Below are positions 54,693 through 59,672 of a stretch of 64,000 nucleotides of DNA, in pieces. Each line of letters opens with the position of its first letter. The first letter of the stretch is position 1. Position numbers and translations under genes: made by a program. The notes beneath the pieces are model-generated. The model was not told where the DNA came from. It saw only the letters and a list, made by a program, of their open reading frames with translations, and ran no database searches. This DNA is from Comamonadaceae bacterium (lineage in GTDB: Bacteria; Pseudomonadota; Gammaproteobacteria; Burkholderiales; Burkholderiaceae_C). The stretch spans positions 1 through 64,000 of the forward strand of contig BJGT01000004.1 of NCBI GenBank assembly GCA_014190675.1. The letters are read 5' to 3'.

Positions 54693-57608
54693 TTAGCCCA
54701 GGTGCTTGCCCACAATGCCGGCGAGTTCAAACATGGTGACCTGTGGCTTGCCGAACACGGCCAGCAACTTGGCATCCGCGTTGATGGCGCGCTTGTTGGC
54801 GCTGTCCTGCAGGCCATGGGCCTTGATGTAGTCCCAAAGTTTTTTGATCACCTGCGGGCGCCCAATGGCCTCGGGGCCAATCACCGCTGCCAAGGCCGCG
54901 CTGGGTTGCAGGCCGGCCGAGGGCGCCTTTTTGCTCACAGCTTTGCGCGGCGTCACGGCCTTAGGTTTAAGGAGTTTGGCGGCCTTACCGGCCTTCGCGG
55001 GCGCGGCGCTTGATTTGGCAGCCGCCGCTTTGGCCGCGGCGCCCGGGCGCGGCGGGAACTTCGATGGCGCAAACTCAAAGTTCACCTTGCCTGCCTCGGC
55101 ATCCCAGGACAGCATGGCCTTGAAGGCACGGCGCGTGCGCATGCTGACAAACTTGTCGAGCAAGTCGGTCTTGCCTGTGGCCAATAGCTTGGTCATTTGG
55201 TCCCGCTGAATGGGTTGCTGCAAGATGATCTGGCCGCTTTTGAAGTCGCAGCTCGGGCTGGCCTGTGCCAGGGTGGACACCGATTTTTCGCAAACATAGC
55301 TCTTGCCGTGCTCAAACACAGCGCTGCCGCATTTGGGGCAGGCGCCCAGGCTTTGCTGGGCTGAAAAGTCGATCAACTCGCCGGTCTCTTCACCCTTTTT
55401 GTCATCGCCAAAATCGAATTCGAGCTTGTAATTTTTGCTCTCTTCGTCAAACTTGATCACCATCTCGGCAGTGAACGGCCAACCGGCCTTGGAGCGAAAG
55501 CCGTCCAACGGTCCAATTTTTCGCTCGCGCAAAAACTGCTCGACCTCGGCGGCCTCAAACGTCCGCCCGGCTGGCGTCTTGCCAAACGAAAAGCCGCAGC
55601 CGTCTTCCGCGCCGGTCTTGCCGGTACACGTGTAGCGACGGTAGTTTTCCTTGACCACGCCGCCGCAATTGGGGCAGGCTGCATGCAAGGTGGCATAGTC
55701 GCCCGGGATGGTGTCGCGGTCATATTCCTTGGCCTTTTTGACCATGCGCTCGGTCATGGCCGCAATATCGGCCATGAAGCTGCTGCGGCTGAGTTGGCCG
55801 AGTTCCATTTGCGCCAGCTTGTATTCCCACTCGCCGGTAAGCTCGGCTTTGGACAGTTCTTCCACGCCCAGGCCGCGCAACAGCGTCATCAGCTGGAACG
55901 CTTTGGCGGTCGGAATCAGCTCGCGACCCTCGCGCAGCATGTATTTCTCGGCGATCAGCCCCTCGATGATGGCCGAGCGGGTGGCAGGTGTGCCCAGGCC
56001 TTTCTCTTGCATGGCCTCGCGCAGTTCGTCGTCTTCCACGGTTTTGCCGGCGCCTTCCATGGCGCCGAGCAGCGTCGCCTCAGAGTAGCGTGCGGGTGGC
56101 CGGGTTTTCAGGCTCTTGGGATCGACGGTGGCAGTGCGGACCTTCTCCCCGGGCTGAACCGGCACCAGGTTCTGGCCCTTGTCGCCGTCCTTGGCGTCAG
56201 CCACCTCCAACGCAGCCTCTTTGCCGTAAATCGCCAGCCAGCCGGGTTTGACCAGCACCTTGCCCTCGGTCTTGAAGCTGTGCCCGGCGGCGATGCTGAT
56301 GCGGGTGGTGACTTGGTACTCGGCGCTCGGGAAAAACACCGCCATAAAGCGGCGCACCACCAGGTCATAGATTTTTTGCTCGGCTTCACTCAGCCCACTG
56401 GGGGCTTGCAGCGTAGGGATGATGGCGAAGTGGTCACTTACCTTGGTGTTATCAAATACCCGCTTGGTCGGTTTGATGTAGTGGCCGTTGAGCGCGGTCA
56501 AGGCATGCGGGGCCAGGTGCCGCATGCCTGAATCGGCCAGCATCTCAAAGGTCTGTTTGACCACCGGCACGTAGTCTTCCGGCAAGGCGCGCGAGTCGGT
56601 ACGGGGGTAGGTCAGCGCCTTGTGGCGTTCGTAAAGGCTTTGCGCGATCGACAGCGTGGTCTTGGCCGAGTAGCCAAACTTGCCATTGGCCTCGCGTTGC
56701 AGGCTGGTCAGGTCAAACAGCGGCGGCGCGGCCTGGGTGGTAGGCTTGCTTTCTTCGGTAACGCTGGCGCTCTGGCCGCGCACCGCATCGGCAATGGCCT
56801 GCGCCTCGCGCTGGCTCCAGACCCGGTCGGCCTTTTTCTCGGCGTCCTCAGCATCTTTTTTATGCTTTGGGTCAAACCACTTGGCGGCATACTCGCCGGC
56901 CTGGGCGGCAAAACTGGCGTGAATTTCCCAGAAGTCGCGGCTGATGAACTTGCGGATCTGCTCCTCGCGCTCTACCACCACCGACAGCGTGGGCGTTTGC
57001 ACCCGCCCGACGGTAGTCAAGAAAAAGCCGCCGTCGCGCGAGTTGAAGGCGGTCATGGCGCGGGTGCCGTTGATACCCACCAGCCAATCGGCCTCGCTGC
57101 GGCAGCGCGCGGCGTCGGCCAGGGGTTGCATTTGCGCATTGCTGCGCAGGGCGCCAAAGCCATCGCGGATGGCCTGCGGCGTCATGCTCTGCAACCACAG
57201 CCGGCTGACCGGCTTGCCCAGTGGTTTGACCCCGCCGGCGTACTGTTCGATCAGCCGGAAGATCAGCTCTCCCTCGCGGCCCGCGTCGCAGGCGTTGATG
57301 AGCTGATCCACATCTTTGCGTTTGGCCAGTCGCACCACGGCGTTGAGCCGAGTCTTGGTTTTGTCCACCGGCTTGAGGTCAAAGTGCGGCGGAATCACCG
57401 GCAGGTGGGCAAAGCTCCATTTGCCGCGCTTGACATCAAAGGCCTCGGGCGCCTGGATCTCGACCAGGTGGCCAACCGCGCTCGAGACCACATAGCGCTC
57501 GTTCTCAAAGTGCTCATCATGCTTCTCGAACTTGCCTGCGACCGGCGTGAGCGCACGCACGATGTCTTGGGCCACAGAAGGTTTTTCGGCAATGATCAAT
57601 GTTTTCAT
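54693..57608 (-). CDS. topB: DNA topoisomerase III with C-terminal SWIB domain
   Basis: A 971-residue type IA topoisomerase. 'LIIAEKPSVAQDI' and 'CDAGREGELIF' form the Toprim metal site, Y334 in 'ALTYPRTDSR' is the catalytic tyrosine, and two Cys sets ('ACPNCGG...CTGK', 'ACPKCGS...CEKS') lie after residue ~680. Residues ~840-900 are a basic Lys/Ala/Pro linker ('KAAAAKSSAAPAKAGKAAKLLKPKA'). The last ~69 residues ('AIGRPQVIKKLWDYIKAHGLQDSANKRAINADAKLLAVF') are a SWIB/MDM2 domain, the module of eukaryotic SWI/SNF subunits and of chlamydial TopA. It is divergent from the SET gene. The ATG at 57608 starts 'MKTLIIAEKPS' as in the family. Confidence 0.93.
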   Translation of the reverse strand: MKTLIIAEKPSVAQDIVRALTPVAGKFEKHDEHFENERYVVSSAVGHLVEIQAPEAFDVKRGKWSFAHLPVIPPHFDLKPVDKTKTRLNAVVRLAKRKDVDQLINACDAGREGELIFRLIEQYAGGVKPLGKPVSRLWLQSMTPQAIRDGFGALRSNAQMQPLADAARCRSEADWLVGINGTRAMTAFNSRDGGFFLTTVGRVQTPTLSVVVEREEQIRKFISRDFWEIHASFAAQAGEYAAKWFDPKHKKDAEDAEKKADRVWSQREAQAIADAVRGQSASVTEESKPTTQAAPPLFDLTSLQREANGKFGYSAKTTLSIAQSLYERHKALTYPRTDSRALPEDYVPVVKQTFEMLADSGMRHLAPHALTALNGHYIKPTKRVFDNTKVSDHFAIIPTLQAPSGLSEAEQKIYDLVVRRFMAVFFPSAEYQVTTRISIAAGHSFKTEGKVLVKPGWLAIYGKEAALEVADAKDGDKGQNLVPVQPGEKVRTATVDPKSLKTRPPARYSEATLLGAMEGAGKTVEDDELREAMQEKGLGTPATRSAIIEGLIAEKYMLREGRELIPTAKAFQLMTLLRGLGVEELSKAELTGEWEYKLAQMELGQLSRSSFMADIAAMTERMVKKAKEYDRDTIPGDYATLHAACPNCGGVVKENYRRYTCTGKTGAEDGCGFSFGKTPAGRTFEAAEVEQFLRERKIGPLDGFRSKAGWPFTAEMVIKFDEESKNYKLEFDFGDDKKGEETGELIDFSAQQSLGACPKCGSAVFEHGKSYVCEKSVSTLAQASPSCDFKSGQIILQQPIQRDQMTKLLATGKTDLLDKFVSMRTRRAFKAMLSWDAEAGKVNFEFAPSKFPPRPGAAAKAAAAKSSAAPAKAGKAAKLLKPKAVTPRKAVSKKAPSAGLQPSAALAAVIGPEAIGRPQVIKKLWDYIKAHGLQDSANKRAINADAKLLAVFGKPQVTMFELAGIVGKHLG

Positions 57609-57641
57609 CTGACTACAATCCTGTCCGTCGCGGGCGCGCGG

Positions 57642-57679
57642 GCGCACGCACATGCACACGTGAGCGCGCACACGCACGC
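57642..57679. other. Alternating purine-pyrimidine tract (Z-DNA-prone)
   Basis: Bases 57642-57662 alternate purine and pyrimidine (GC/AC/GT steps) for 21 nt; after one phase break at A63, 57664-57679 alternate for 16 more, continuing the GC-rich CGCGGGCGCGCGGG stretch at 57629. It lies 33-70 bp upstream of topB and 34-71 bp upstream of the SET gene, i.e. on the shared divergent region. Such DNA turns to Z-form under negative supercoiling. Confidence 0.6.
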
Positions 57680-57712
57680 CCGTCCGGGTCCACCATACCA
57701 AATTTTTCAAAC

Positions 57713-58189
57713 GTGTCTAAACCAAGCCAGGCTGTTGATCACCGCCGCATTCAGGTTCGCCGCTCGGGAGTACATGGCAAAGGTGTTTTTGCCCTGCAAG
57801 ACCTGGCCGAAGGCGAGGCCTTGATTGAGTACATCGGCGAGATCATCAACTGGGTCGAGGCCGAACGGCGCCACCCCCATGATCCGCTGCAGCCCAACCA
57901 CACGTTTTATTTCCATATCGACGCAGAGCGGGTGATTGATGCGCGGTACGGTGGCAATGCGTCCCGCTGGATCAACCATTCCTGCGCGCCCAATTGCGAG
58001 GCTGATGCTGTGGGCGGGCGTGTTTTTATTCGTGCACTGCGGCCGATCTTGCGCGGCGAAGAGTTGAACTACGACTACGGGCTGGTGGTTGATGCACGCC
58101 AGACAGCCAAGCTCAAAGCTGACTATGCCTGCTGGTGCGGTGCCAGGCAGTGCCGCGGCACCATGCTGGCACCCAAAGGGCGACGCTAA
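57713..58189 (+). CDS. SET-domain protein-lysine methyltransferase
   Basis: A 158-residue protein consisting of little more than a SET domain. 'SGVHGKGVFAL' (residues ~18-28) binds SAM, 'RWINHSCAPNCE' (85-96) and 'GEELNYDYG' (115-123) are the catalytic core, and 'ACWCGARQCRG' gives the post-SET Cys C140, C142, C147. All hallmark residues are intact, so it should be active on a lysine of an unknown protein target. Start is the GTG at 57713 (MSKPSQAVDH). It sits divergent from topB-SWIB and 11 bp before birA. SET proteins are common in eukaryotes and present in scattered bacteria. Confidence 0.92.
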   Translation: MSKPSQAVDHRRIQVRRSGVHGKGVFALQDLAEGEALIEYIGEIINWVEAERRHPHDPLQPNHTFYFHIDAERVIDARYGGNASRWINHSCAPNCEADAVGGRVFIRALRPILRGEELNYDYGLVVDARQTAKLKADYACWCGARQCRGTMLAPKGRR

Positions 58190-58200
58190 GCGGCCTTGGG

Positions 58201-59001
58201 ATGGCGGCAGACTATCAATCGCTTGGACTGGCGCTGTCACAGCAACAGACGGGGCTGGTTTTGGAGGTGGTAGATAGCCTGGATTCGACCAACTCGGAGC
58301 TCATGCGACGGGCACGCGCGGGCATCGGGCAGCCCACGCTCTTGGTCGCCCAACACCAAACCGCGGGGCGCGGGCGCTTAGGCAGGCAGTGGCTCAGCGC
58401 CGAACATCACACCGGCAGCGAGGGCAGCGGGGCAGCTGGCGAATCGCTCACTTTTTCGCTAGTGCTGCCCCTGACGGTGGCGGATTGGTCGGGCCTGTCT
58501 TTGGCGGTAGGCCTTAGCCTAGCCAGCAGCCTGCACCCCGATCTGCGCTTGAAGTGGCCCAATGACATCTGGCTCGAACAGCGCAAACTCGCCGGCATTT
58601 TGATTGAAACCGTGGCCATAGGGTCGGCCCGCTTGGCCATCGTGGGCGTGGGCATCAACCTGGGGCCGCGCGGCGCCTCGGGACTGGCCAGGGCGCCTGC
58701 CTGGTTGCAAGAGGTGTTGCCGCAGATCGATGCGCCCACCACCCTGCTGCGCCTGGTGCCCGGGTTGCTGCGCACGCTGCAAGAATTCGAGTCCCTTGGC
58801 TTTGCACCATTCAGGGCCGGGTTTGCACAGCGCGATGCGCTGTTTGGTGCCTCAGTCAGCTTGAGCGACGGCACGCTTGGCAGCGCCGAGGGCGTGGATG
58901 CCAGGGGTGCGCTGCTGCTTCGCACAGCCCAGGGACTGCGGGCCATCAGCAGCGACGAGGTGAGCTTGCGCGCCCCCTCAACTGGCGCAAAGGCTGCGTG
59001 A
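58201..59001 (+). CDS. birA: Biotin-[acetyl-CoA-carboxylase] ligase
   Basis: A 266-residue monofunctional BirA. 'STNSELMRRARAG' binds ATP/biotin, 'TAGRGRLGRQW' is the biotin loop and 'LKWPNDIWLEQRKLAGILIE' the catalytic Lys region; 'GVGINL' follows. It lacks the N-terminal DNA-binding domain, so it does not repress biotin genes. It forms biotinyl-5'-AMP and loads AccB. Its 3' end overlaps the next gene's GTG (GTGA). Confidence 0.93.
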   Translation: MAADYQSLGLALSQQQTGLVLEVVDSLDSTNSELMRRARAGIGQPTLLVAQHQTAGRGRLGRQWLSAEHHTGSEGSGAAGESLTFSLVLPLTVADWSGLSLAVGLSLASSLHPDLRLKWPNDIWLEQRKLAGILIETVAIGSARLAIVGVGINLGPRGASGLARAPAWLQEVLPQIDAPTTLLRLVPGLLRTLQEFESLGFAPFRAGFAQRDALFGASVSLSDGTLGSAEGVDARGALLLRTAQGLRAISSDEVSLRAPSTGAKAA

Positions 59002-59672
59002 GACCGACCCGCCTAGCCCGGCTGCGCCAGTTCGTCTTGTTGGCGCTGCTGTTCAATCTGGTTTATTTTCTGTGGGCCGAGGACCTGCTCAGAGGCGCCG
59101 GTTTTGGGCCCAAGGTGCAGCGCGAGCCGCTCAGGCTGGAGCGCCAGATCAACCCGCAAGCGGTCAAGATTCAAAAAATCGACCCCCAGTTCCCGGGCGA
59201 TGCGGCATTGGCATCGGCCGAAGGCCCCTGCCTGCAGTCCAACCCCCTGGAACAGGGCAAAGCCAGCTTGTTGCGTCAATCGGTGAGCCCGCTGCTGCCG
59301 CCTGAGGCCTGGGCCATGACGCCGGCAACCCTGCCAGCGCGTTGGATTATCTACATCGGACAATACAACAGCCCGCTGACCATCGCCAGCAAACGGGCAG
59401 AGTTGGCAGCGCTGAATATCGCCGTCGAAGCCTTGACAAATCCTGAGCTCGAACTGGGCTTGTCTTTGGGACATTTCACCAGCCAATCGGCCGCTGCAAC
59501 GGCCTTGGAAGCATTGAAAAAACGCGGCCTGCGAAAAGCCTTGGTGGTGCAGGAACAACCCGAGACACTGGGCACTGTGATGCGGGTGCGGCTGAGCGAT
59601 GCGGCGCTTCAAAACAAGCTCGACAGCCTCGGGGCCGAGTTGGCCAACACTGGCTGGCAGCCCTGCTCCTGA
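58998..59672 (+). CDS. Membrane-anchored SPOR-like protein
   Basis: A 224-residue protein with one N-terminal helix ('FVLLALLFNLVYFLWAEDL', ~residues 12-28), a charged linker ('RLERQINPQAV') and a C-terminal ~75-residue region 'RWIIYIGQYNSPLTIASKRAELAALNIAVEAL...LGLSLGHFTSQSAAATALEALKKRGLRKALVVQE' of the SPOR type, which binds denuded peptidoglycan. It starts with a GTG that overlaps birA's stop. In Burkholderiales a SPOR-like gene commonly follows birA/coaX. Likely periplasmic; exact role unknown. Confidence 0.78.
   Translation: MRPTRLARLRQFVLLALLFNLVYFLWAEDLLRGAGFGPKVQREPLRLERQINPQAVKIQKIDPQFPGDAALASAEGPCLQSNPLEQGKASLLRQSVSPLLPPEAWAMTPATLPARWIIYIGQYNSPLTIASKRAELAALNIAVEALTNPELELGLSLGHFTSQSAAATALEALKKRGLRKALVVQEQPETLGTVMRVRLSDAALQNKLDSLGAELANTGWQPCS

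Follow-up and report, generated by a model that had tools for sequence, protein, structure and literature searches.

A Z-DNA-prone tract conserved in the divergent promoter region of topB and a SET-domain methyltransferase gene across a bacterial family

Background

In Chlamydia the type IA topoisomerase TopA carries a C-terminal SWIB domain, and the paper describing it (PMC12445093) gives SWIB on TopA as confined to Chlamydia, a statement which concerns TopA. For some bacterial and archaeal SET enzymes a basic nucleoid protein of the same organism is reported as the substrate, as in the pairs cpnSET–Hc1 and Go1-SET–MC1-alpha of a review (PMC3980110), according to which the bacterial SET methyltransferases known best have their targets in hosts. 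Here we describe a locus in which both domain types lie back to back, found in the first 64,000 nucleotides (nt) of contig BJGT01000004.1 (assembly GCA_014190675.1) of a Comamonadaceae bacterium of the order Burkholderiales; this whole stretch is called the window. In it topB, encoding a DNA topoisomerase III with a SWIB domain, is transcribed divergently from a gene for a SET-domain methyltransferase (SET in the following), which is followed by a birA-like gene and a gene for a SPOR-like protein, and a tract of alternating purines and pyrimidines lies between the two divergent genes.

Both proteins belong to known families. The chlamydial protein likewise joins a type IA topoisomerase to SWIB at the C-terminus, but it is a TopA, whereas the window protein is a TopB. 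The enzymes of the two reported enzyme–substrate pairs act on basic nucleoid proteins; the window SET is known from its sequence and predicted fold. It agrees with KMT2/MLL-type SET domains in sequence, predicted fold and catalytic and post-SET motifs, and unlike the KMT2/MLL proteins it is a single small domain. The tract shows the alternation rich in CG and CA/TG steps of Z-DNA-forming tracts, and unlike other such tracts it recurs in a bacterial family at one and the same divergent promoter region. A literature search returned no paper joining "SWIB" with "topoisomerase III". In the literature searched by titles and abstract openings we found no comparable family-wide Z-prone tract at a divergent promoter; within that search, it is this conserved promoter region of the block of which we saw no description.

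Results

An alternating tract between topB and SET

The preliminary description of this locus, made from the sequence alone, had claimed a SWIB-fused topoisomerase III with a basic, H1-like linker at about residues 840–900, divergent across 104 bp from a complete SET domain with post-SET cysteines, and all of this was borne out by the matches and alignments reported below. The divergent intergenic region of 104 bp (57609..57712) lies between the ATG of topB and the GTG of SET. It contains an alternating purine–pyrimidine, and thus Z-DNA-prone, tract at 57642..57679, composed of one run of 21 nt (57642–57662) and one of 16 nt (57664–57679) with a single out-of-phase base between them. These are the only alternating runs of at least 16 nt in the 64-kb window, and a 21-nt run was reached in the gap by 3 of 1000 shuffles.

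For the intergenic tests 190 loci were given, of which 175 had a usable pair (101 from the survey and 74 named); it should be noted that these comprise 167 distinct sequences and that species may repeat. Of the 175 loci, 154 have their longest alternating run in the topB–SET gap, compared with 5.6 expected from its length, and the median longest run is 22 nt inside the gap and 13 nt outside. Against dinucleotide-preserving shuffles 150 of the 175 gaps reach p<0.05. A 22-nt alternating pattern applied to 80 whole genomes gave 108 distinct runs in 56 genomes, a lower bound because the pattern detects only runs preceded by a purine–purine step on one strand, and 40 of these runs lie in the topB–SET gap where 0.006 would be expected by length. 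With a 24-nt pattern in ten whole genomes, two of them picked for a known long tract, matches were obtained in seven, and in six of these every match is in the gap. In several members the genome has no longer alternating tract than this one. In 14 loci of other families the region upstream of topB lacks the tract, and runs there do not exceed 10 nt.

The steps of the tract are mostly CG and CA/TG. It is not a plain repeat, as the longest exact period-2 stretch covers 26% of the run (median, runs of at least 16 nt), and its distance to SET keeps no reading frame.

Two further observations were made on alternating sites; here and below G, C, L and f designate our genomes, contigs, loci and families. 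A second recurring, near-palindromic alternating site outside the gap is alike in several genera (G378:C1:3408, G354:C7:94991, G381:C3:7851, G385:C9:13477, G327:C11:3484 and G321:C9:258). Further, in an early-branching clade of the family (L118, L119 and L144) the topB–SET gap measures about 700–840 bp and the tract is missing; a thioredoxin-like gene seems by eye to lie in this gap.

Candidate promoters on both sides of the tract

To the left of the tract a conserved −10-like box, TACAAT, is found in the direction of SET (57614..57619, plus strand). The box is present in 160 of the 175 gaps against 4.5 expected from shuffles, and is nearly always left of the tract. To the right, a sigma-70-type topB promoter, TAGACA–16–TATGGT, is predicted at 57692..57719 on the minus strand; one such promoter was found, where shuffles gave a mean of 0.0 (standard deviation 0.2). 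If the TACAAT box and the predicted topB promoter are both right, it follows that the two promoters face each other and that both transcripts cross the tract.

Negative supercoiling turns alternating CG/CA tracts into Z-DNA, a form that can hinder RNA polymerase. We therefore suggest a shared control region, with the TACAAT box on one side, the predicted topB promoter on the other and between them the tract, which both transcripts would cross. Under negative supercoiling the tract would flip to the Z-form, absorb torsion and slow initial transcription, and expression of topB and of SET–birA would follow local DNA topology. Our reading of the locus, which we hold tentatively and regard as quite possible, has three parts: it is an old inherited divergent block of the family, with topB on one side and SET–birA–SPOR on the other; its divergent transcription may be torsion-sensitive by way of the tract; and SET would act on endogenous proteins. 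The conserved sequence is what we observe; the mechanism is what we infer.

Several findings weigh against this reading. Across relatives the score of the topB promoter is at the shuffled level (median 7.5 vs 7.5). The tract is short or absent (<14 nt) in 23 of the 175 loci, and on the tree, where it is present in 84 of 101 loci, it needs about 12 state changes. Runs detected by the 22-nt pattern lie outside the topB–SET gap in 68 of 108 cases, and with the 24-nt pattern three of the ten genomes, the window's own included, gave no match, while in the seventh genome with a match this was elsewhere, in a simple repeat. Of the six genomes with a clean loss of SET (see below), two, both of one genus, have no tract and a third has a weak one of 11 nt. 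Finally, RNA folding of the tract is modestly better than that of shuffles, with z<−2 in 13 of 60 loci (median −0.88) for the SET strand and in 14 of 60 (median −0.89) for the opposite one.

Adjacency of topB and SET

In 300 genomes of the order SET was detected in 80 and SWIB in 111. A SWIB domain in a frame of topoisomerase length was found in nine of the ten genomes of the window's own family and in none of the 290 others, where the longest frame was 354 amino acids. We then turned to the own family, with 150 genomes from 126 genera, of which 141 carry SET and 148 have a match to the topB model above its cut-off. The preliminary description had called for a neighbourhood survey, the two genes possibly being rare neighbours in related genomes. 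They are not: SET is divergent from topB in 135 of the 141 SET-bearing genomes. The spacing between the domain matches of these pairs is at most 425 bp in 125 and 675–861 bp in 10, and a further short gene may fit into the latter gaps. As to the six remaining genomes, the topB match is split in G336, where SET lies 1.6 kb from the second half and hence is also close; in G355 and G416 the two genes are on different contigs; no topB match is listed for G368 and G391; and in G314 SET adjoins birA, with topB 2.1 Mb away.

Divergent adjacency occurs alike with SWIB on topB (65 genomes) and without it (67), three more being truncated. One genome with two topB matches (G345, probable contamination) was counted as SWIB-bearing although the topB beside its SET has no SWIB, so that 64 vs 68 is the fairer count. 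On a TopB tree (FastTree, 110 family members and 4 outgroup sequences) the SWIB state changes six times, and the SET state changes three times when G374 and G414 are left out, or five times if both are scored as SET-less. The first branch, G374, is unreadable for SET, and at the next two branchings SET is near topB while SWIB is absent. The fusion is thus not needed for the pairing of topB and SET, and as judged from the sequences SET was probably beside topB before the SWIB fusion.

Outside the family SET and topB share a contig at a distance of up to 13 kb, as judged by eye, in 13 of 70 SET genomes, three of which have the genes directly adjoining and belong to f6. In the others topB is farther away, on another contig, across a contig end or not found over the cut-off. 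At seven other SET loci outside the family, with one or two annotated neighbours each, no topoisomerase was seen and the genes are unrelated. In small-genome members of f31 SET is directly behind dnaA–dnaN–gyrB (three loci, L192–L194). In f6 SET is placed between gyrB and a convergent topB in L180 and L182, and the third f6 locus shows the SET–topB side only. An ancestral gyrB–SET–topB order was considered and set aside, one shared origin not being shown, as the f6 SETs fall in a separate clade of the SET tree (a quick tree with modest support). A repeated association of SET with topoisomerase genes is possible, not established.

SET and birA in a stable block

The birA-like biotin protein ligase gene is directly behind SET on the same strand (58201..59001, plus strand; Pfam BPL_LplA_LipB and BPL_C), its start being approximate as the mechanical open reading frame (ORF) runs from 58135. 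It is followed by the gene for the SPOR-like protein (58998..59672, plus strand), whose SPOR match (E-value 5e-4, 20.8 bits) is just under the cut-off of 21; a SPOR gene is often next after birA in the block. In 80 named loci a BirA-like gene is behind SET in 78, the remaining two sequences ending 112–134 bp behind SET, and topB is beside SET in 76, the misses being near sequence ends. All three genes are together in 74, and in the other six the sequence breaks off 71–555 bp from SET, at the flank where a neighbour is missing.

Nine family genomes were first scored as SET-less. In one of them (G414) the contig ends inside SET and two (G374 and G347) are unreadable, which leaves six clean losses in four genera. 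In all six readable cases birA is the direct divergent neighbour of topB, at a distance of 185–271 bp. Conversely, in the two clear separations of SET from topB, G314 and G368, SET stays with birA; in G368 some 5 kb on the other side of SET contain no topB. The birA gene, on the same strand as SET, is thus the closer partner of SET, and the SET–topB pairing is one part of a stable block, since topB|birA persists without SET and separated SETs stay with birA. The specific functional link between SWIB-TopB and SET put forward in the preliminary description is not supported by these results, nor by the adjacency found alike with and without SWIB, which seems to precede the fusion.

The tract is kept in three of the six clean SET-less genomes (17–21 nt), hence it is a feature of the block's divergent promoter region and not of SET only. 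All nine genomes scored as SET-less are of at most 3.1 Mb. They make up 9 of the 27 genomes of this size, and none of the 123 larger genomes was scored so; after the three unreadable ones are dropped the counts are 6 of 24 and 0 of 123. These counts were made by hand from rounded sizes. SET seems dispensable under genome reduction, as every scored SET-less genome is this small.

The SET methyltransferase

SET encodes a predicted protein lysine methyltransferase of 158 amino acids with post-SET cysteines (57713..58189, plus strand), the probable start being the GTG at 57713. PF00856 matches over its whole profile (positions 1–105 of 105; E-value 2.7e-23, 82.8 bits vs a cut-off of 22.4), and the Pfam scan of the ORF gave PF00856 alone, with no second domain. 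Residues N88, H89, C91, Y122, C140, C142 and C147 are invariant across 41 aligned relatives; we take NHSC and ELxYDY to be the catalytic motifs and the three last residues to be the post-SET cysteines. Among relatives of solved structure, human MLL1 is the best sequence match (96.9 bits). The AlphaFold model has a mean pLDDT (predicted local distance difference test) of 84.8 and an MLL1-like fold, and a Foldseek comparison with the MLL1 SET domain gave an E-value of 4.5e-13 at 37% identity. From sequence and model, SET looks like an intact MLL-type lysine methyltransferase.

The mechanical ORF of SET starts at an ATG at 57599, inside topB, and thus runs upstream through the tract (57599–57712); this longer start is probably not used. 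The open frame through the tract says little, because alternating runs cannot contain a stop codon. A second, weaker SET gene is present in the genome of the window (L002, G000:C31:27761–28069, 36.4 bits), and several family genomes have a divergent second SET group away from topB (L299, L301–L307; SET tree).

Among the best 80 of the matches listed, the named carriers of SET are mainly Rhodoferax, Polaromonas, Limnohabitans, Curvibacter, Hydrogenophaga, Ramlibacter and environmental genomes, with a few Paracidovorax. We take these carriers to be mostly free-living and the few Paracidovorax to be plant-associated, and for this reason the target of SET is probably one or several of the bacterium's own proteins, of which TopB is only one candidate.

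TopB and its SWIB domain

The topB gene (54693..57608, minus strand) encodes 971 amino acids, with the start placed at the ATG at 57608, where the profile match begins; the mechanical ORF (54693–57710) has a TTG start. The equivalog model NF011313 (PRK14724) matches residues 1–970, SWIB end included, with 1987.6 bits against a curated cut-off of 1088, and Pfam finds Toprim, Topoisom_bac (E-value 6.5e-110), two stretches of Toprim_Crpt and SWIB. TopB is thus an ordinary topoisomerase III. The PRK14724 model has the same full length including the SWIB end, with no essential difference from our protein, and is named only "DNA topoisomerase III"; the SWIB–topB fusion hence already exists as a database family.

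The SWIB/MDM2 domain occupies about residues 901–971 (54696..54908, minus strand) and matches PF02201 with 82.8–87.5 bits (E-value 1.5e-23 at 82.8 bits, gathering cut-off 25). The SWIB and SET matches at the locus are both far above chance. Ahead of the domain is the Lys/Ala-rich, H1-like linker, residues 849–895 (54924..55064, minus strand), with 11 Lys, 2 Arg and 16 Ala among its 47 residues. One further SWIB was found in the genome of the window, in a stand-alone open frame of 137 amino acids. The chlamydial TopA–SWIB model NF004966 (PRK06319) reaches only 182 bits on TopB, where its curated cut-off is 868, hence the SWIB–TopB of the window looks like a fusion separate from chlamydial SWIB-TopA.

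Stand-alone SWIB proteins of the order have an N-terminal, AKKA-rich, H1-like tail in most cases, often long and in a few short (31 frames, L003 and L035–L064). As the tail of TopB resembles these, it likely gained SWIB, in one subclade, by fusion with a stand-alone gene for an H1-like SWIB protein. The added SWIB part of TopB, we infer, probably binds DNA.

Tail lysines and SWIB in relation to SET

The TopB tail is Lys-rich in most family members read, with or without SWIB. Two SET-less genomes of one genus (L110 and L116) have a tail without any Lys, and four other SET-less family genomes (L111, L112, L113 and L117) keep 9–12. Among 49 SET-less genomes picked from other families, 22 had a topB over the cut-off, all with 5–21 tail Lys, and in the three f6 loci L180–L182, where SET is beside topB, the tail has a single Lys. 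Since SET-less tails of other families keep their lysines while the SET-bearing f6 tails hold one, the tail lysines of TopB do not track the presence of SET. A coevolution of tail and SET was accordingly rejected, with Lys loss accompanying SET loss in one genus only and control tails that do not follow.

SWIB was found in 60 of 60 family genomes searched, and all nine genomes scored as SET-less have a match outside topB. With adjacency independent of SWIB, a coupling of SET and SWIB inside the family was rejected. Outside the family the co-occurrence is strong, with SWIB in 51 of the 70 genomes that have SET and in 50 of the 220 that lack it (odds ratio 9.1, uncorrected for kinship or genome size), and eight SET genomes of f31 have no SWIB.

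Discussion

The arrangement might be neutral, with topB, SET, birA and SPOR as a slowly changing block in which neither adjacency nor control has a function. We regard this as possible and somewhat doubtful. The persistence of topB|birA without SET speaks for it, and so do the equal faithfulness of birA behind and topB before SET (78 and 76 of 80 named loci) and the unrelated neighbours of several SETs in other families, but it leaves unexplained why the gap holds the longest alternating run of the locus across most of the family. The conservation of the tract might also have a cause other than Z-DNA, such as the binding of a protein, a function in an RNA leader or a mutable repeat. Many tracts open with CTCGCG or similar and there is the modest RNA folding signal; however, the steps change from tract to tract (CG, CA, TG and TA) with the alternation preserved, and neither much exact repetition nor a common reading frame is found, which makes such a role somewhat unlikely in our opinion. 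A divergent block with a torsion-sensitive promoter region is still the account that we put forward.

With regard to the function of SET, methylation of lysines in the TopB linker would tune the topoisomerase and make the two neighbours an enzyme–substrate pair. The conserved divergent adjacency, the Lys-rich tail of most TopB proteins in the family and the genus that lost both SET and every tail Lys are consistent with this, and there is a precedent in Chlamydia, where cpnSET methylates the H1-like Hc1 and NUE did not, as reported in the review (PMC3980110). Against it stand the 22 of 22 SET-less tails of other families with at least five Lys, the four SET-less family genomes that keep theirs, the three genomes with SET beside topB and one tail Lys, and the closer partnership with birA. 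The comparative evidence from sequences gives methylation of TopB by SET little support, and we consider the pair improbable. SET could instead act on other basic nucleoid proteins, such as stand-alone H1-like SWIB or HU/H1-like proteins, its place beside topB being incidental. The co-occurrence of SET and SWIB outside the family (with kinship uncorrected), the AKKA-type tails on most stand-alone SWIB proteins read, and chlamydial Hc1 and archaeal MC1-alpha as precedents in the same review (PMC3980110) point this way; yet SWIB is not lost together with SET in the family, and the eight f31 genomes have SET without it, so that we see these targets as conceivable, with some doubt. Last, SET might be a secreted effector acting on eukaryotic chromatin, as bacterial SET proteins such as NUE and RomA/LegAS4 are in that review (PMC3980110). 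The LegAS4/AnkI effector model NF043024 gives a weak match of 32.1 bits, far from its curated cut-off of 550, and SET sits with birA in a housekeeping block and is present in nearly all sampled genomes of the family. The named carriers are mainly from genera that we take to be environmental. As judged from model score, gene context and carriers, an effector role is extremely improbable.

Further, we speculate that the tract, as a Z-DNA-forming element between topB and SET–birA, is a family-wide supercoiling sensor linking expression of a topoisomerase and a chromatin-type methyltransferase to torsion, so that DNA topology and methylation of nucleoid proteins would adjust together; in this full form we judge the idea unlikely. 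Should the torsion sensor be true, a whole bacterial family would provide a natural example of Z-DNA at the promoter of a topoisomerase gene. Of the 150 genomes sampled from this largely environmental family, 141 carry SET, and its place within a housekeeping block points with this to an unstudied function of the methyltransferase inside bacteria.

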